This document shows positions 177 to 14,659 of a stretch of DNA of 14,731 bases, one piece after another. Origin of the DNA: Ruminococcaceae bacterium UBA6364 (GTDB lineage Bacteria; Bacillota; Clostridia; Oscillospirales; Acutalibacteraceae); assembly GCA_002440045.1 (NCBI GenBank), contig DJRI01000072.1:1-14731 (forward strand), written 5' to 3'. Position 1 is the stretch's first letter; each line of letters opens with the position of its first letter. Under the pieces are notes generated by a model. It ran no database searches and was not told the origin of the DNA. It worked only from the letters and a program-made list of their open reading frames with translations. A program made the translations under genes and the position numbers.

Positions 177-854
177 ATGAAAGAAAATGTAAAAAAAGCA
201 TTCGGCATAGGCATAAGAGTCGCCTTTGTAATCGCCGTTACGGTTACGGTAATTGTAAAATACCGCGAGCTTGTGTCGCTCGATGTAAGAGGGCTTGTTG
301 CACACGCCGACAACGTGTATATTGCGGCGCTTTCGGTGCTCGGCGTTTATGCCTTAAAATCGGTGCTGTTTGTAATCCCCGCTTCAATGCTTTATATGTC
401 GGCGGGGCTTGCCTTCGACTTTTTGCCGGGGCTTCTTATAAACGCGCTCGGAATTTTTATAGAGCTTAACCTGACGTTTCTTGTCGGGCGGTTTTTGGGC
501 GGCGACAGAGTAGAAAAAAAGCTGCGCGAAACAAAATACGGCGAAAAAATAATAAGCCTTCGCGATGAAAAAACGGCGCAGATATTTTTAGTAAGGCTTT
601 TGCCCGTTTTCCCGATAGATTTTGTAAGCCTGTTTTTCGGCGCTTCGGGAATGAAATATCCGCACTATATGCTCGTTTCGTTTTTCGGCATCATGCCGCG
701 AGTTATAATAATAACCCTCTTGGGAGATAAGATTTACGACTATCTTCCGAGAGAGCTTATGATGATTCTTATTATTCTTGCAATAATCGGCGCGCTTATT
801 TTCGGCACCGTCAAATACATTAAAAAGGTTTCTTCAAAAAAGAACGGTCAATAA
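177..854 (+). CDS. TVP38/TMEM64 (DedA-like, SNARE-associated Golgi domain) membrane protein
   Basis: A 225-residue polytopic inner-membrane protein. Hydrophobic segments lie at about residues 9-27, 47-68, 70-104, 161-183 and 194-214, and the C-terminus is Lys-rich and probably cytoplasmic. The stretch RLLPVFPIDFVSLFFGASGM (140-159), followed by G171-x-x-P-R, matches the conserved Arg-x-x-P-x-x-P/re-entrant loop core of the VTT/TVP38 family. Members are linked to lipid or polyprenyl-phosphate transport; the exact substrate here is unknown. The ATG follows the upstream stop by one base and has no strong SD of its own, so translation is probably coupled. The last 7 nt overlap the convergent tadA-luxS gene, and the probable terminator lies inside that gene. 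Confidence 0.82.
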   Translation: MKENVKKAFGIGIRVAFVIAVTVTVIVKYRELVSLDVRGLVAHADNVYIAALSVLGVYALKSVLFVIPASMLYMSAGLAFDFLPGLLINALGIFIELNLTFLVGRFLGGDRVEKKLRETKYGEKIISLRDEKTAQIFLVRLLPVFPIDFVSLFFGASGMKYPHYMLVSFFGIMPRVIIITLLGDKIYDYLPRELMMILIILAIIGALIFGTVKYIKKVSSKKNGQ

Positions 855-1300
855 TGCATATCGCAAGCCGCAAGGTCTTTCAGTACATTGTACTGAGCCG
901 CGGCTTCTTTTTTTGCAAGGCAAAGGTTGTGGTCGCGGTAGTTTCCGCATTCTTCGGGGCTTACACCGGGAATTTCGCCCTCGTATTCGCTTATGAATTT
1001 AAGCGCCCTTTTCGTAAGCTCAAGCGCTTCGCCGTCCGTTATGCCCGTTGTGAGAAAATAAAAACCCGTTCTGCAGCCCATAGGTCCGAAATAAATTATG
1101 TTTTTTGAATATTCCGAATTGCGCGCAAATGTCGCAAAAAGATGCTCAATGGTGTGCATGGCACCCGTTTCCATAACAGGCTCTATGTTGGGGCGGCGCA
1201 TTCTTATGTCGTATGTAACCACATCGCCGTCGATTCTTGAAACATACATTCCCTTTAAAAGCTTTGTATGGTCTATTTTAAAGCTTTCGATTTTTTCCAT
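848..1300 (-). CDS. luxS: LuxS from the internal start (alternative product of the fused gene)
   Basis: Initiating at the internal ATG (complement of 1298-1300) gives a 150-residue protein beginning MEKIESFKIDHTKLLKG, the usual LuxS N-terminus and length. The metal ligands are H49, H53 and C118, with E52 and C76 catalytic in this numbering. The start is preceded by GGAGG at ideal distance. It would supply LuxS independently of the fusion, for recycling S-adenosylhomocysteine through Pfs/LuxS to homocysteine and releasing the AI-2 precursor. It shares its frame with tadA, so both full-length fusion and free LuxS may exist. Which dominates cannot be read from sequence. Confidence 0.6.
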   Translation of the reverse strand: MEKIESFKIDHTKLLKGMYVSRIDGDVVTYDIRMRRPNIEPVMETGAMHTIEHLFATFARNSEYSKNIIYFGPMGCRTGFYFLTTGITDGEALELTKRALKFISEYEGEIPGVSPEECGNYRDHNLCLAKKEAAAQYNVLKDLAACDMHY

Positions 1301-1783
1301 AGAAATTTTCCTCCGTTCCGCTTTTTCGGCGGATTTTTTTGTTCTCAGCTCTTTAAAAAAGTCCGATAAAAGCGTTTTGCACTCGTCCTCCATAAAGCCG
1401 CCCGTTTTTTGCGGCTTATGGTTAAAATCCATAACGGTCAAATCGGTAACGGAGCCGCACGCGCCGTTCTTTTTGTCATAAGCGCCGAACGTAACCTTTT
1501 TAATGCGCGAGTTTATTATAGCGCCCGCGCACATCGGGCACGGCTCAAGCGTCACAAACATTTCGCACTGCCAAAGCCGCCAGCCCGAAAGCCTTTTGCA
1601 GGCGCTGTCTATCGCCTCTATTTCGGCGTGGCAAAGCGCGTTTTTCTGCGTTTCGCGGCGGTTTCTTCCCGTGCCGACAATTTCGCCGTCAAGCGCAACC
1701 ACCGCGCCGACGGGCACTTCGCCCTCACAGAACGAAAGCTTCGCTAAAGCGAGCGCCTCTGTCATAAGCTCTTTTTCCGTCAT
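848..1783 (-). CDS. tadA-luxS: TadA-LuxS fusion: tRNA adenosine(34) deaminase joined to S-ribosylhomocysteine lyase
   Basis: One uninterrupted 311-residue frame. Residues 1-150 are a complete TadA, which deaminates A34 to inosine in tRNA-Arg(ACG). Zinc and catalytic residues are visible as CHAE (H52, E54) and PCPMCAGA (C82, C85). A 15-residue basic linker (about 147-161) follows. Residues 162-311 are a complete LuxS, which cleaves S-ribosylhomocysteine to homocysteine and the AI-2 precursor DPD. LuxS residues are the metal site H210-T-I-E213-H214, the catalytic Cys in GPMGCRTGFYF (C237), and the third metal ligand C279 in ECGNYRDH. Both are normally separate cytoplasmic homodimers of about 150 residues. 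The ATG lies 3 nt after the CPBP protease stop with no SD, so coupled translation is likely. The luxS part has its own SD and ATG. The junction crosses an A7 run, so a sequencing indel must be excluded. Domain calls are near certain; that the fusion is real is likely. Confidence 0.85.
   Translation of the reverse strand: MTEKELMTEALALAKLSFCEGEVPVGAVVALDGEIVGTGRNRRETQKNALCHAEIEAIDSACKRLSGWRLWQCEMFVTLEPCPMCAGAIINSRIKKVTFGAYDKKNGACGSVTDLTVMDFNHKPQKTGGFMEDECKTLLSDFFKELRTKKSAEKAERRKISMEKIESFKIDHTKLLKGMYVSRIDGDVVTYDIRMRRPNIEPVMETGAMHTIEHLFATFARNSEYSKNIIYFGPMGCRTGFYFLTTGITDGEALELTKRALKFISEYEGEIPGVSPEECGNYRDHNLCLAKKEAAAQYNVLKDLAACDMHY
865..914 (+). terminator. Probable intrinsic terminator of the + strand unit, embedded in luxS
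   Basis: The outer arms AAGCCGC (865-871) and GCGGCTT (900-906) enclose an inner hairpin TCAGTAC-att-GTACTGA (880-896). The structure is followed directly by CTTTTTTT (907-914). It begins 10 nt after the stop codon of the TVP38-like gene and has the correct polarity only for the + strand. It lies wholly inside the antisense luxS coding sequence. Confidence 0.65.
1298..1314 (-). promoter_or_regulatory. Internal ribosome binding site and start codon of luxS
   Basis: On the - strand, GGAGG (complement of 1310-1314) is followed by a 9-nt spacer and ATG (complement of 1298-1300). It lies inside the tadA-luxS frame, where the bases encode Glu-Arg-Arg-Lys-Ile-Ser-Met. It marks the ancestral start of a separate luxS gene and probably still works. 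Confidence 0.7.
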
Positions 1784-9113: not shown

Positions 9114-9839
9114 ATGCCGAACAAAGAAGATTTCAGTTTAACGCTGACTCCCGTTGCCTTTGTTGAAAACGATTTTACGGGAAGCTTCGGTATTCCGCGC
9201 CAAAGCGGGCTTGCAAAAAGCATTGTGTCTCAAATAATTTTTTGCGACGGCTTTTGCGACAAAAACGCGCTTCGCGGAATTGAGCAATACTCTCATCTTT
9301 GGCTTATCTGGGGCTTTTCCGAAAATTTTTCAAAGGGCTTTTCACCGACCGTGCGCCCGCCGAAGCTCGGCGGAAACACGCGGGTTGGCGTGTTTGCCAC
9401 GCGCTCGCCGTTCAGGCCGAACCCCTTGGGGCTGTCGTGCGTTGAGCTTTTGGGCGTTAAAAGCAAAAACGGCAGGCTTTGTCTTGAAGTTGCGGGGGCT
9501 GACATTAAAAGCGGCTCGCCCGTTTACGACATAAAGCCGTATATACCTTATGCCGACATAAAAAGCGGCGCTTCGGGCGGCTTTTCGGAGGAACACAAAA
9601 ACGACTTTAAAAACGTTGTTTTTGAAGAAGAGGTTAAAAACGCCCTGCCCGAAGATATTCTTTTTTCACTGCGCGAGGTTTTGAGCCTTGACCCGAAACC
9701 GCAATATAAAACGGGTGGCAAGGTTTATAAAATGACCTTCGGCGAATATGAAATAAGCTTTTTGTCAGACGGCGGCGACATAACGGTAACAAACGCCGCA
9801 AGGAGGGGAAAATATGTGCCGGATACCAAAGGCGTTTAA
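9114..9839 (+). CDS. trmO: tRNA (N6-threonylcarbamoyladenosine(37)-N6)-methyltransferase TrmO (TsaA/YaeB family)
   Basis: A 241-residue member of the TsaA/UPF0066 family. TrmO uses S-adenosylmethionine to methylate t6A37 to m6t6A in tRNA-Thr. The diagnostic stretches are present: LGGNTRVGVFATRSPFRPNP (85-104), directly followed by LGLS, and GADIKSGSPVYDIKPYIPYA (128-147). The fold is an SAM-binding beta-barrel acting as a dimer, with a C-terminal region here to 241, close to the E. coli length. The ATG comes one base after the GH2 stop and has no SD, so translation is probably coupled to GH2. The 3' end overlaps the next gene by 26 nt. Confidence 0.9.
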   Translation: MPNKEDFSLTLTPVAFVENDFTGSFGIPRQSGLAKSIVSQIIFCDGFCDKNALRGIEQYSHLWLIWGFSENFSKGFSPTVRPPKLGGNTRVGVFATRSPFRPNPLGLSCVELLGVKSKNGRLCLEVAGADIKSGSPVYDIKPYIPYADIKSGASGGFSEEHKNDFKNVVFEEEVKNALPEDILFSLREVLSLDPKPQYKTGGKVYKMTFGEYEISFLSDGGDITVTNAARRGKYVPDTKGV

Positions 9840-10800
9840 AAATTTCAAATGTACCGCGTCGGGGTGCAGCGATAACTGCTGCATCGGCTGGGAAATAGAC
9901 ATTGACTCTGACACTCTTATAAAATACAAAAACGTCACGGGCGGCTTTTCGGATGAATTAAGGCGCGGCATAACCTTTTCTTCCGACGGCTCTTTGTGCT
10001 TTAAGCTGATAAACGAGCGGTGCTTTTTTCTTGACGAAAACAACCTTTGCAGAATATACAAAACACTCGGCAAGGACGCGCTTTGCGACATCTGCCGCGA
10101 GCACCCGCGGTTTTATAACGACTACGGCAGCATTTTGGAAGAGGGCTTCGGGCTTCAGTGCGAAGAAGCGGTAAGGCTTCTTTTTGAGGGCGGCGGCATA
10201 AATTTAAGCGACGTTTCTTACGAAAAAAATCTTTCGCTCTCTTCTTTTGAGGACGAAAGAGCCGCGGCGGTATTCGATTTGAGAGACAGAATTTTTTCGT
10301 TTATTTACGATGAAACGCTTTCTCTCGGCGCGGTTTTTAAAAAAGCCGCAGCCGAAGCGGAGCGCACTCAAAAAAGTCTTTTCGGCGGCTTTTGCGAAGC
10401 GGATATTTTAAAAAGCGACGTTCTTTTGCGCTATATGGGCGATATGGAGCCTGTTGACGGTGTTTGGCCTTCGCTTGTTGAAAAAATGCTTCATGCGCTC
10501 CCCGCTTTAAAGAGCATAAGAAAAGAAATTACGTCATATTATGCCGAAAGAGGGCGCCAATACAGGCAGATTTTTTCTTACCTTTTATACCGCCACCTTT
10601 TTGACGCCGTTTACGACGGCGAAACGGCGGCGCGCACGGCATTTTGCATAAACTTTGTAAATATGCTCAGACTTTATGACGCCTACATAATAAAAGAAAA
10701 CGGCGCGTTTTCAAAAAACGACGCATTAAACACGGTTAAATACCTTTCAAAGCAGATTGAATACAGCGAAGAAAACACCGAGCTTTTAATGTTTGTTTAA
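9814..10800 (+). CDS. FliB-like (flagellin lysine-N-methylase family) Cys-rich protein
   Basis: A 328-residue protein. The first 120 residues are very Cys-rich: KCTASGCSDNCCIGWEIDID (12-31, C13, C18, C22, C23), then C62, C70 (RCFFLDENNLC), C79, C91, C94 (CDICREHPRFY) and C116. This matches the N-terminal cysteine pattern of the FliB/YkgJ-type family, in which Salmonella FliB methylates lysines of flagellin. The rest (about 120-328) is helical and not otherwise recognisable. No flagellar gene lies in the window, so the methylase name is by family only; another protein target is possible. ATG 9814 is preceded by AGGAGGGG (9801-9808), a strong SD inside trmO, giving a 26-nt overlap. It is the last gene of the operon, with no clear terminator before the next promoter. 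Confidence 0.75.
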   Translation: MCRIPKAFKNFKCTASGCSDNCCIGWEIDIDSDTLIKYKNVTGGFSDELRRGITFSSDGSLCFKLINERCFFLDENNLCRIYKTLGKDALCDICREHPRFYNDYGSILEEGFGLQCEEAVRLLFEGGGINLSDVSYEKNLSLSSFEDERAAAVFDLRDRIFSFIYDETLSLGAVFKKAAAEAERTQKSLFGGFCEADILKSDVLLRYMGDMEPVDGVWPSLVEKMLHALPALKSIRKEITSYYAERGRQYRQIFSYLLYRHLFDAVYDGETAARTAFCINFVNMLRLYDAYIIKENGAFSKNDALNTVKYLSKQIEYSEENTELLMFV

Positions 10801-10848: not shown

Positions 10849-10885
10849 AAAGCCGCAGTGAAACACCTGTTTAAAAAGCGGTTTT
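10849..10885 (+). other. Leader hairpin, possible attenuator, before the first glycerophosphotransferase gene
   Basis: AAAGCCGC (10849-10856) pairs with GCGGTTTT (10878-10885) through 8 bp including one G-U. The loop is 21 nt and itself contains AAAC-ACCT-GTTT (10861-10872). It would begin at the predicted 5' end of the mRNA and finish 6 nt before the SD GGGGG (10892-10896). The same right arm also pairs perfectly with AAAACCGC (10820-10827), available only in read-through transcripts from upstream. It could act as a weak terminator, an attenuator or a 5' stabiliser. Confidence 0.4.
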
Positions 10886-10904
10886 GTTTACGGGGGTAAA
10901 AATT

Positions 10905-12152
10905 TTGGCAAAGCTACGAAAGCTTTTAATAAACATTGCAAAAAAACACCGATGGCTCCTTAATTTTTTAAGGGGCTTAAGGTATGCGTATTTCAGACTG
11001 CGCTTTATGTTTTTTTATTATACCCAAAAGACTGATTCGCGCATTGTGCTTTTTGACGCCTACATGGGGCGGCAGTTTGCGTGCAGTCCGAAGGCTATTT
11101 ACCTCGAAATGCTGAACGACCCGCGTTTTTCGGACTTTAAGTTTGTGTGGGCGTTCAGAAATCCCGGGGATTTTTCTTACCTTAAAGGCAACAAAAACAC
11201 TTTAACCACAGTCTATGAAAGCGGCGAATATTTTAAATATTGCGCCAAAGCGAAGTATTGGATAACAAACTCGCGCCTTAACGAGGCAATTAAAAAGAAA
11301 CCCGAGCAGGTTTATATCCAATGCTGGCACGGCACGCCCCTGAAAAAGCTCGGCTACGACATAGAGGTCAAGGGCGGCAACGCCATGAACTCTGTTGCTG
11401 ATATACAGCACAAATATAAAATCGACTCAAAAAGATATACATATATGATTTCGCCCTCGCCGTTCTGCACCGAAAAATTTGCTTCGGCGTTTGACCTTGA
11501 GCACCCCGAAATTATAAAAGAAGTTGGCTACCCGAGAAACGACGCGCTCTTTAAATACACCGAAAGCAACGTTGAAAGAATAAAAACGGAACTCGGTATT
11601 CCCGAAGATAAGCGCGTTATTCTTTACGCACCCACCTGGCGCGACGACTGCCACGAATCCGGCAAGGGCTATGTTTATAAAGCTCAGCTCGATTTTAAAA
11701 GACTGCGCGACGCTTTGGGCGATAAATTCGTGCTTCTTTTCAGAACACACTATTTCATTTCAAACTATATAGACCTTTCGGAATTTGAGGGCTTTGTTTA
11801 CAACGTCAGCCGCCACAACGACATAAACGAGCTGTACATTATAAGCGATATGCTCATAACCGACTATTCAAGCGTCTTTTTTGACTTTGCAAACCTTAAA
11901 AGACCGATTATCTTTTATATGTACGATTACGACAGCTACAAAACAAAGCTCCGTGATTTTTACATAGATGTTTCAACGCTTCCGGGGCCGATTGTCAAAA
12001 CACAGGACGAGCTTCAAAGCGCCATAGCTTCATACAAAGAAAACGCCCCGCTTTATAATGACAAATATACGGCGTTTCTTGAAAAATTCTGTCCCAAAGA
12101 CGACGGCTTTGCCGCAAAACGCGTTGTGGATTGCTGTATTGAACACAATTAA
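10905..12152 (+). CDS. CDP-glycerol glycerophosphotransferase family protein (TagB/TagF-like)
   Basis: A 415-residue protein of the Glyphos_transf family, which transfers glycerol-phosphate (or a similar polyol-phosphate) from its CDP-activated form to a lipid-linked acceptor during teichoic-acid-like polymer assembly at the inner membrane face. Family motifs: CWHGTPLKKLG (140-150, with the proposed catalytic His), GYPRND (208-213), YAPTWR (241-246), RTHYF (280-284) and ITDYSSVFFDFA (318-329). The N-terminal 45 residues are basic and aromatic (KLRKLLINIAKKHRWLLNFL), suiting membrane association. I chose TTG 10905 because GGGGG (10892-10896) is 8 nt upstream; TTG 10884, seven codons earlier, has no SD. 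Whether it is a primase or a polymerase cannot be told. It lies 56 nt before a paralogue. Confidence 0.85.
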   Translation: MAKLRKLLINIAKKHRWLLNFLRGLRYAYFRLRFMFFYYTQKTDSRIVLFDAYMGRQFACSPKAIYLEMLNDPRFSDFKFVWAFRNPGDFSYLKGNKNTLTTVYESGEYFKYCAKAKYWITNSRLNEAIKKKPEQVYIQCWHGTPLKKLGYDIEVKGGNAMNSVADIQHKYKIDSKRYTYMISPSPFCTEKFASAFDLEHPEIIKEVGYPRNDALFKYTESNVERIKTELGIPEDKRVILYAPTWRDDCHESGKGYVYKAQLDFKRLRDALGDKFVLLFRTHYFISNYIDLSEFEGFVYNVSRHNDINELYIISDMLITDYSSVFFDFANLKRPIIFYMYDYDSYKTKLRDFYIDVSTLPGPIVKTQDELQSAIASYKENAPLYNDKYTAFLEKFCPKDDGFAAKRVVDCCIEHN

Positions 12153-12208: not shown

Positions 12209-14659
12209 ATGGGTACAAAACCGCTGAAAATTATTAAAAAGAACTTTAAAAAGTACAGAACAAACGCTTTTTTCAAAGCAAAATTTGTCTACACAAAGTT
12301 CTATGAAACGCTTTCCGTCGAAGAAAACACCGTGCTTGTTCAGTCATACGGTGCAACGGGCATTAACGGCAGTCCGTTTTACATAGTAAAGGAGCTTTGC
12401 AACAATCCCGATTATGCCGACCTTTCGATTTTTGTAGTCGCAAAAAAGGATAACGAAAACAGCATACTTGAACTTCTTCAAAAAAACGGCTGCGGCAAGG
12501 TAAAAACCGTTATTTTCAACAGCAGCGAATACTGCAAGCTGCTTGCTTCCGCAAAATATTTGATAAACAATTCCACATTTCCGACCTACTATATAAAAAA
12601 GCCCGGTCAGATTTATCTCAACACCTGGCACGGCACGCCGCTTAAAGCTCTCGGACGGCAAATTAAAAATGCGCCGAACGAAATAGGCAATACGCAGCGA
12701 AATTTCATAATGTCGGATTATTTGCTTTATCCCAACAAATTCACATTTGAGGCGATGAAGCGCGACTATATGCTCGGCAATTTCTTTAAGGGCGAGTATA
12801 TCCTCTCGGGCTATCCGCGCAACGAAATATTTTTTGACAGCGCTTCAAGAGAACGCATAATCGAAGAAATGGGGCTTGAGGGCAAAAAAATAATCGTTTT
12901 TATGCCCACCTGGAAAGGCTCTCTTGTTTCAAAAAACATCGACGAGCAAATCGTTTATGCAAAACACGCGCTTTATGAAATGGACGCCCACCTTGATGAC
13001 GATACGGTTGTTTTCGTAAAACTCCACAGCCTTGTAACAAAAGGTCTCAATTTCAACTCGTTTAAAAGAATATTCAGCGTTCCCTCAGAATATGAAACAT
13101 ATGAGTTTTTAAACGCTGCCGACTGTCTTGTTACGGACTATTCAAGCGTATTTTGGGATTTTGCAAACACCGGCAAAAAAATTGTTCTTTATGCATACGA
13201 TTTCGATAAATATTTAAGCGAAAAAGGTATGTATATCGATATGAAAACGCTGCCGTTCCCCATCGTATACAACTCTGCAGAGCTTATAAACGAGCTTAAA
13301 AATCTTGACGATTATAAGCCATACAAAGAAGAGCTTTCGTCATATCTTGAATATGACTCGCCCGACGCTTCAAAAAAGCTGTGCGCATATATTTTTGCAC
13401 GCAAAAAGTCGGACGGTATGGATATTATAAAGGGCTCAACATTTGCAAACAACAAAGAAAACGTGCTTATGTTTGCCGGCGCGCTTTTAAAGAACGGCAT
13501 AACAACGGCGTTTAAAAACCTTGTCAGCACCCTTAATTCTTCGGGCGGACCCGAAAGAAACTATATCATCACATTTTATCAAAAGCGTGTAGAGCAAAAC
13601 AAAAGCGTTATTTTTGAATTTGCAAACAACGATTATATAGTCATACAAGGTCCTAAGGACGTTACCCTTTTTGAAGCCGTAATTCAATTTTTGTTCTTGC
13701 GGCTCAACATCAAAACAAAGCACATTCTTAAAATAATCAAGCGCATAAATGCGCGCGAAATAAAAAGAGTTTATCCGGGAATAGACTTTTCCTACTGCAT
13801 AAACTTTTCGGGTTATGAATCCGGATTTTTCAATATGTCATACGGTCTTGACTGCAAAAAATTCGTTTGGGTTCACAACAATATGTATGCCGAAGCCGAC
13901 AAAAAGCAGAATTTCCACATCAACTCTTTAAAACTCGGCTACAGCGAAGCTTCAAAAATAGCCGTCGTAAGAGAGAGCTTAAAAGAAGAGCTTACTTCTT
14001 ACGTCAAGCCCTCGGAGCGTAACAAGCTTTGCGTTGTTCACAACCAGAACGATATTGAGGGCATTAAAACCAAAGCCGAGCTGCCGATTGAATTTAACGA
14101 CGACACGTTCTGCAGCGTTTCTTTAAGCGAGCTTGAAGCCGTCCTTGACAGCGACTGCGAAAAATTCATCAACATTGCAAGATTCTCTGTTGAAAAAGGT
14201 CTTGACCGACTTATTTCGGCTTTTGCAAAATACAGAAGCGAAACAAATCCCGACGCCCATCTTATAATCGTCGGCGGCTACGGCAAGGAGTTCCAAAAAA
14301 CTCTTGAGCTTGCCGAAGAATTGGGCGAGGGTCATATAATTATTGTAAAATCAATTTCAAATCCCTATCCCATTCTTAAAAAATGCGGCGCGTTTGTTCT
14401 TTCGTCTCATTACGAGGGTCTTCCCATGACGATTATCGAAGCGCTCATTCTCGGCGTTCCGGTATTTTCAACAAACATTCCCGGCCCGCGCGAGTTCCTT
14501 GAAAAGGGCTACGGCACACTTGTGGAGGATTCCGAAAACGGCATTGCCTGCGGCTTTAAGGCATATCACAACGGTACGCTTAAAGCGAGCGTTGAGTTTG
14601 ACGCGGAAGAATTTAACCGCAACGCGCTTAAAGAATATTATTCGCTTTTTGACGATTGA
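12209..14659 (+). CDS. Two-domain enzyme: CDP-glycerol glycerophosphotransferase fused to GT4 glycosyltransferase
   Basis: An 816-residue protein. Residues about 1-395 are a TagB/TagF-like glycerophosphotransferase domain with TWHGTPLKALG (139-149), SGYPRNE (200-206), PTWKGS (233-238), KLHS (271-274) and VTDYSSVFWDFA (308-319). Residues about 417-816 are a GT-B glycosyltransferase of family GT4: an N-terminal lobe from NVLMFAGALLKNGITTAF, then ARFSVEKGLDRLISAF (657-672), IIVGGYG (686-692), and the EX7E motif E736 to E744 in SSHYEGLPMTIIEALILG. It probably adds both a glycerol-phosphate-type unit and a nucleotide-sugar-derived hexose to one envelope polymer. The order and substrates are inferred. 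The ATG has AAGGGGA (12197-12203). There is no signal peptide, so it acts on the cytoplasmic side. The upstream 56-nt gap holds a small AAGCTG-A-CAGCTT palindrome (12180-12192). Confidence 0.85.
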   Translation: MGTKPLKIIKKNFKKYRTNAFFKAKFVYTKFYETLSVEENTVLVQSYGATGINGSPFYIVKELCNNPDYADLSIFVVAKKDNENSILELLQKNGCGKVKTVIFNSSEYCKLLASAKYLINNSTFPTYYIKKPGQIYLNTWHGTPLKALGRQIKNAPNEIGNTQRNFIMSDYLLYPNKFTFEAMKRDYMLGNFFKGEYILSGYPRNEIFFDSASRERIIEEMGLEGKKIIVFMPTWKGSLVSKNIDEQIVYAKHALYEMDAHLDDDTVVFVKLHSLVTKGLNFNSFKRIFSVPSEYETYEFLNAADCLVTDYSSVFWDFANTGKKIVLYAYDFDKYLSEKGMYIDMKTLPFPIVYNSAELINELKNLDDYKPYKEELSSYLEYDSPDASKKLCAYIFARKKSDGMDIIKGSTFANNKENVLMFAGALLKNGITTAFKNLVSTLNSSGGPERNYIITFYQKRVEQNKSVIFEFANNDYIVIQGPKDVTLFEAVIQFLFLRLNIKTKHILKIIKRINAREIKRVYPGIDFSYCINFSGYESGFFNMSYGLDCKKFVWVHNNMYAEADKKQNFHINSLKLGYSEASKIAVVRESLKEELTSYVKPSERNKLCVVHNQNDIEGIKTKAELPIEFNDDTFCSVSLSELEAVLDSDCEKFINIARFSVEKGLDRLISAFAKYRSETNPDAHLIIVGGYGKEFQKTLELAEELGEGHIIIVKSISNPYPILKKCGAFVLSSHYEGLPMTIIEALILGVPVFSTNIPGPREFLEKGYGTLVEDSENGIACGFKAYHNGTLKASVEFDAEEFNRNALKEYYSLFDD

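Follow-up and report, generated by a model that had tools for sequence, protein, structure and literature searches.

As listed in Table 1, it was found that a TadA-type deaminase and a LuxS are encoded by one uninterrupted ORF in the window, that is, the whole stretch of 14,731 nucleotides from the contig DJRI01000072.1 of Ruminococcaceae bacterium UBA6364 analyzed in this study. This ORF is a real fusion gene, probably derived from a tandem tadA-luxS pair, and, judging from sequence comparisons, it most likely gives two products, since a free LuxS is probably made from Met162 besides the TadA-LuxS chain. TadA forms inosine-34 in tRNA-Arg(ACG), LuxS cleaves S-ribosylhomocysteine, and each of them is a homodimer in known structures. 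Two unrelated enzymes are joined in a single chain here, and this arrangement evolved at least twice. The first-pass annotation had recognized the continuous protein but had not given its strand, which is the minus strand; the plus strand at the same positions is interrupted by stops.

Table 1. Features of the tadA-luxS locus in the window
Feature	Position	Strand	Remarks
tadA-luxS fusion ORF, 311 aa	848..1783	minus	single open frame; stop codon 848-850
TadA part, residues 1-147 (H52, E54, C82, C85)	1343..1783	minus	Pfam, residues, fold match 7cph/2b3j
Linker, residues 148-161, TKKSAEKAERRKIS	1301..1342	minus	low conservation, low pLDDT
Shine-Dalgarno-like GGAGGA in linker, 8 nt 5′ of ATG	1309..1314	minus	pairing -12.1 kcal/mol
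ATG of Met162, proposed internal start for free LuxS	1298..1300	minus	Met in all listed homologues
LuxS part, residues 162-311 (H210, E213, H214, C237, C279), 150 aa as a free protein	848..1300	minus	Pfam, NCBIfam, fold match
CPBP-type protease gene, PF02517	1787..3169	minus	directly upstream, ends 3 nt before tadA ATG
VTT-domain gene	177..854	plus	convergent; end overlaps fusion ORF end by 7 nt

Both domains were matched by Pfam above the gathering scores, the deaminase by PF14437 (residues 3-147) and PF00383 (residues 3-100) and LuxS by PF02664 (residues 164-298, 168.4 bits). Among the NCBIfam equivalogs, the LuxS model NF002604 was passed (174.4 against a cut-off of 158), while the TadA model NF008113, one model of a narrow set, was just missed (140.4 against 150 bits). 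Foldseek matched the two parts with TadA structures (7cph and 2b3j) and LuxS structures (1j6x, 1inn, and 1j98), respectively. The best PDB match of the deaminase part is the Bacillus subtilis TadA 7cph, which aligns over residues 1-154 of the fusion with an E value of 3e-44 and shows 48% identity in the fold match. Since the NF008113 score falls short while the best PDB match is a TadA, the deaminase half is called TadA-type here, and it is very probably TadA itself. It shares the deaminase domain with H52, E54, C82, and C85 with the TadA of B. subtilis and Staphylococcus aureus (2b3j) and differs from them in bearing a LuxS at the C-terminus. The other half resembles the LuxS of Deinococcus radiodurans (1inn) and B. 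subtilis (1j98) in the motif residues, the equivalog score, and the fold. LuxS normally occurs as a separate protein of about 150-165 residues; here it stands behind TadA and is probably made free too.

All the catalytic and zinc residues named in the first-pass annotation (H52, E54, C82, C85, H210, E213, H214, C237, and C279) are present, and they are kept in 120 of the 120 listed homologues. In the LuxS part, H210, H214, and C279 are the metal ligands and E213 and C237 are catalytic. The linker had been described as basic and 15 residues long; its basic character holds, with six residues being K or R, but its length is 14 residues. Its mean conservation among the listed homologues is 0.49 versus 0.87 and 0.91 in the two enzyme parts (on the LuxS side, these means are offset by one position). 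An AlphaFold2 model, based on an alignment of 48 sequences (the window's protein plus 47 of the 120 listed homologues), has a mean pLDDT of 82 and a pTM of 0.49, with low-confidence stretches at residues 105-113, 153-159 (pLDDT <50), and 276-279. Because of the pTM value, no mutual orientation of the TadA and LuxS parts is fixed in the model.

Is this architecture found in other proteins? In a protein search with the fusion, 4125 proteins passed, and the figures given here rest on the 120 of them listed; two further searches listed 120 of 4998 and 120 of 2746 matches. PF02664 and the deaminase domains occur together in 120 of the 120 listed homologues, which are 299-329 residues in length, and also in 10 further genomes of the genus; this is the joint architecture that the first-pass annotation had suggested looking for. 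One of the homologues, P0001, is 98% identical to the window's protein and represents a cluster of 99 member sequences. A few listed homologues, such as P0026 and P0079, have an automatic source name combining both enzymes; thus, the architecture is already present in databases. The first-pass annotation knew of no established TadA-LuxS enzyme, and in accordance with this, no study of TadA-LuxS fusions of either lineage described below was found in the literature searched, which consisted mostly of open-access journals. The words "fusion", "fused", and "deaminase" were not found in the accessible part of PMC9540692.

The genus of the window's organism was represented by 22 draft genomes of uncultured Clostridia with 0-4% contamination. 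A fused tadA-luxS gene is present in 11 of the 22 (G000, G396, G397, G398, G400, G401, G403, G406, G407, G408, and G410); the other fusions are about 66-73% identical to the window's protein, and their linker residues vary widely. One genome (G411) has a degenerate fusion and a second LuxS. Five genomes have tadA and luxS as separate ORFs in tandem, in different frames in G394, G402, G404, and G405 and in the same frame in G399, where a single TAA lies three bases 5′ of the luxS ATG. In the junctions that were read, those of G402 and G399, the tadA stop lies 1-3 nt before the luxS ATG. The two genes are apart in three genomes (G391, G392, and G393), and no LuxS match was found in G395 and G409, which are 81-82% complete. 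The first-pass annotation had regarded a stop or an indel between the domains in close relatives as evidence against the fusion. The five tandem congeners do have separated domains, but they form a clade of their own with a support of 100 and thus do not refute the fusion in the window's genome. As for G407, no difference was found between its two fused copies (924 bases), which lie in a 6.3-kb stretch mnmE-dut-zapA-tadA-luxS (L175 and L193). This stretch occurs on two contigs with 99.95% identity and is perhaps an assembly duplicate rather than a real duplication.

Outside the genus, a scan of 150 genomes of the family, one of which is a tandem congener, gave no full-length fusion except the window's among the matches listed, and a scan of 394 genomes of the order gave no further such fusion beyond the window's at an E value of 1e-73. 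In the class, 156 of 391 genomes matched PF02664; judged by open-frame length, only four LuxS frames of at least 290 residues were found among the matches listed. From named genomes, 80 of 268 loci were kept (72 with LuxS and 8 with TadA) in a collection from which near relatives may be absent, and both genes were found together in none of the 80. Since tadA and luxS share a locus in 0 of the 72 named and 0 of the 30 class LuxS loci, their pairing is unusual and its recurrence is notable.

Such a recurrence was found in another family of the same class, among 16 genomes. TadA-LuxS fusions occur in G128, G916, and G917, and their H, E, and C residues are those of the window's protein. In G307 and G913, tadA and luxS form tandem pairs in different frames, and G196 has TadA and LuxS halves at contig ends. 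In AU tests based on quick trees, a single clade of all TadA-LuxS fusions was rejected (p = 9.3e-5 for LuxS and p = 3e-177 for TadA). By these tests, the fusion evolved at least twice in the class. G128, G916, and G917 have no LuxS match besides the fusion and weak second PF02664 matches of 29-42 bits. These second matches (G128:C108:407-787, G917:C246:964-1347, and G916:C126:13042-13422) perhaps belong to a distant LuxS-like family.

In the window's genus, tadA adjoins zapA and dut even where luxS lies elsewhere (G392 and G393), and luxS therefore probably moved to tadA. The two genes would first have become tandem neighbours, the ribosome site of luxS lying within or close to the end of tadA. 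The tadA stop would then have been lost in frame, and the linker would be the former spacer, read through. The tandem pairs of the five congeners are likely a forerunner or a split state; in the latter case, a fused ancestor would have been split later to give the tandem clade. One clade of the genus fusions was not rejected by the AU test (p = 0.65 on LuxS and p = 0.22 on TadA). In a five-gene tree, the other fused species and the tandem clade group together to the exclusion of G000 with a support of 82, and the support at the G000 node of a neighbour-gene tree is weak (33-66). In TadA-only trees, the separate tadA genes of G392 and G393 fall among the fused ones. G411 has long branches, and its position shifts between trees. 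The trees omit the second copy of G407, the LuxS tree also omits the fused LuxS of G411 and P0121, and the TadA tree omits P0121. Within this one genus, apart, tandem, in-frame but stop-separated, fused, and decayed-fused states can be compared step by step as stages in the birth of a fusion gene.

The decayed state is seen in G411, whose fusion (L181:7906-8826) adjoins the same zapA-dut-mnmE genes. In its LuxS part, the junction Met and the MEKIESF stretch are missing and the HxxEH Glu is replaced by Ala, and PF02664 still scores 82.5 bits. A homologue, P0121, is 96% identical to the G411 fusion and has 7 member sequences. The separate LuxS of G411 (L192:359-1024) has canonical motifs and groups, on a long branch, with the LuxS of other class members. 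Since the fused part has decayed while the separate canonical LuxS groups elsewhere, G411 fits a case in which the LuxS activity was replaced from outside.

It was found that the junction resembles a translation start. A Met is present at residue 162 in 120 of the 120 listed homologues and, over the first two protein searches, in 156 of 157 proteins, the exception being P0121. In all 11 fused genomes, the corresponding ATG lies behind an A/G-rich Shine-Dalgarno-like stretch, whose pairing energy with the 16S end ranges from -6.5 to -12.1 kcal/mol. The other internal in-frame ATGs of the same stretches (n = 1899) have a median of -2.3 kcal/mol; 0-7% of them match the strength of the junctions, and none equals the window's junction (Mann-Whitney p = 9e-9, with G407 counted twice and relatedness ignored). 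The starts of ORFs (n = 202) have a median of -7.0, and 7-61% are as strong as the junctions; thus, the junction resembles an ordinary start. In 11 of 11 fused genomes, pairing at the junction is also stronger than at the first two ATGs of tadA (+3.4 to -4.3 and -0.8 to -5.2, respectively). Non-ATG codons within tadA reach -7.7 in G396, which is still weaker than the junction of G396.

Random synonymous recodings were compared with the real junctions, and the junction was stronger than the mean of the recodings in 11 of 11 fused genomes. Single p values ranged from 0.017 to 0.50 (0.50 in G406 and 0.34 in G398) and gave 4e-4 by Fisher's method, with relatedness ignored; p was 0.2 or less in 9 of 11 junctions versus 11% of 202 control Met codons. 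Stops are absent from the reading frame of the linkers (161 codons in 11 genomes), versus 3 and 21 stops in the other two frames, and the linker is open in 11 of 11 genomes in frame versus 8 and 3 of 11 in the other frames. The junction thus seems to have retained its open frame as well as its ribosome site. The first-pass annotation missed this likely internal start and was in this respect incomplete.

The main alternative is that nothing but the single chain is produced, the junction ATG and its Shine-Dalgarno-like stretch being relics of a former tandem luxS or of a conserved LuxS N-terminus. Since E163, I165, S167, and F168 are conserved as strongly as Met162, part of the Met162 conservation may be structural. 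The second lineage also bears on this point. G128 and G917 have a junction ATG (with a pairing of -8.0, computed for G128 only), while G916 and P0162-P0165 have no junction Met, G916 having a GTG nearby. As no LuxS match above 42 bits exists besides the fusion in G128, G916, and G917, such genomes can probably live on a fused LuxS alone; this speaks against a strict requirement for the internal start. Nevertheless, the Shine-Dalgarno-like stretch persists in spite of divergent linkers and, on average, beyond what the amino acids need. I therefore regard the fusion chain as the sole product as rather unlikely.

Under the preferred reading of two products, initiation at tadA, which has a weak start 3 nt after the CPBP stop, would give the lesser amount, an approximately 34-kDa TadA-LuxS, and initiation at Met162 would give the larger share, a free LuxS of approximately 17 kDa. 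Each part would act as its usual homodimer. The free LuxS would pair with the fused LuxS and could cap chains of dimers, so that no open-ended chains would form. Use of the internal start, if it occurs, would show how the fusion is tolerated, with LuxS retaining its own supply. The first-pass annotation had suggested that the fusion, if real, would couple the level of TadA to AI-2 production; the idea of a rigid coupling is weakened by the predicted free LuxS.

What does the fused gene supply? In 10 of the 11 fused genomes, no PF02664 match exists besides the fused gene, and G407 has its two fused copies. AdoHcy hydrolase (PF05221) was found in none of the 22 genus genomes and MTAN was above the cut-off in 21 of them; thus, it is the LuxS route that is used. 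A tRNA-Arg(ACG) was found in the window's genome (L200). The sole other deaminase match in that genome, C27 (166 residues), is presumably dCMP deaminase-like, judging by its sequence. TadA and LuxS counts in these Clostridia thus stem from one gene, for which databases name either half or both.

A second alternative is that selection keeps the fusion because it physically connects the formation of wobble inosine with SAM recycling or with the output of AI-2. The two or more independent origins indicated by the AU tests, the frame kept in all 11 junctions, and the recurrence of so unusual a pairing speak for it. On the other hand, I know of no shared substrate of TadA and LuxS, the model fixes no mutual orientation, five congeners have separate tandem genes and three have distant ones, and the LuxS part has decayed in G411. 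Although tRNA editing and AI-2 may be coupled, selection for such a coupling seems improbable. More probably, the two enzymes became tied when a stop was lost between closely packed genes, a by-product that is tolerated; a metabolic channel is less probable. Slightly more doubtful still is a selected regulatory assembly with at least two origins in Clostridia, in which fused and free LuxS would co-assemble, LuxS dimers would bridge TadA dimers, the state of the activated methyl cycle would tune inosine-34 and CGN decoding, and a G411-type LuxS would be a retained non-catalytic appendage. An assembly or gene-calling artefact was rejected and is hardly credible, for although the draft genome of the window's organism comprises 180 contigs and is 81% complete, 10 other genus genomes and 120 of the 120 listed clusters, among them P0001, share the open junction with different whole-codon linkers, and independent assemblies contradict it.

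Natural fusions of LuxS with another partner were found in the class. L201 (G343, 376 residues) and L202 (G290, 400 residues) have LuxS at the N-terminus, and their C-terminal partner is MTA/SAH nucleosidase-like, as read by eye from the translation. MTAN is the preceding enzyme in the LuxS pathway. For Cas11b, a shorter second product from an internal in-frame start is described in the accessible part of PMC11899642. The gene studied here resembles Cas11b-type genes in having one frame, a putative inner second start, and a proposed shorter C-terminal product; it differs in that the shorter product, as predicted, would be a whole separate metabolic enzyme. The tandem tadA/luxS genes of the five congeners resemble the translationally coupled, overlapping gene pairs described in the accessible parts of PMC10666635 and PMC12548453, while in the fused species no stop is left between the halves.

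In the window, the CPBP-type protease gene is probably co-transcribed with the fusion. No known RNA elements were found in the window at the gathering score. Farther away, a FliB-type lysine-N-methylase (NF038110, 190 bits against a cut-off of 85) is encoded at positions 9814-10800 and overlaps the TrmO gene. Two related ORFs of 422 and 816 residues (positions 10884-12152 and 12209-14659), partly 31% identical, resemble polymer or glycosyl-transfer enzymes as judged by eye.
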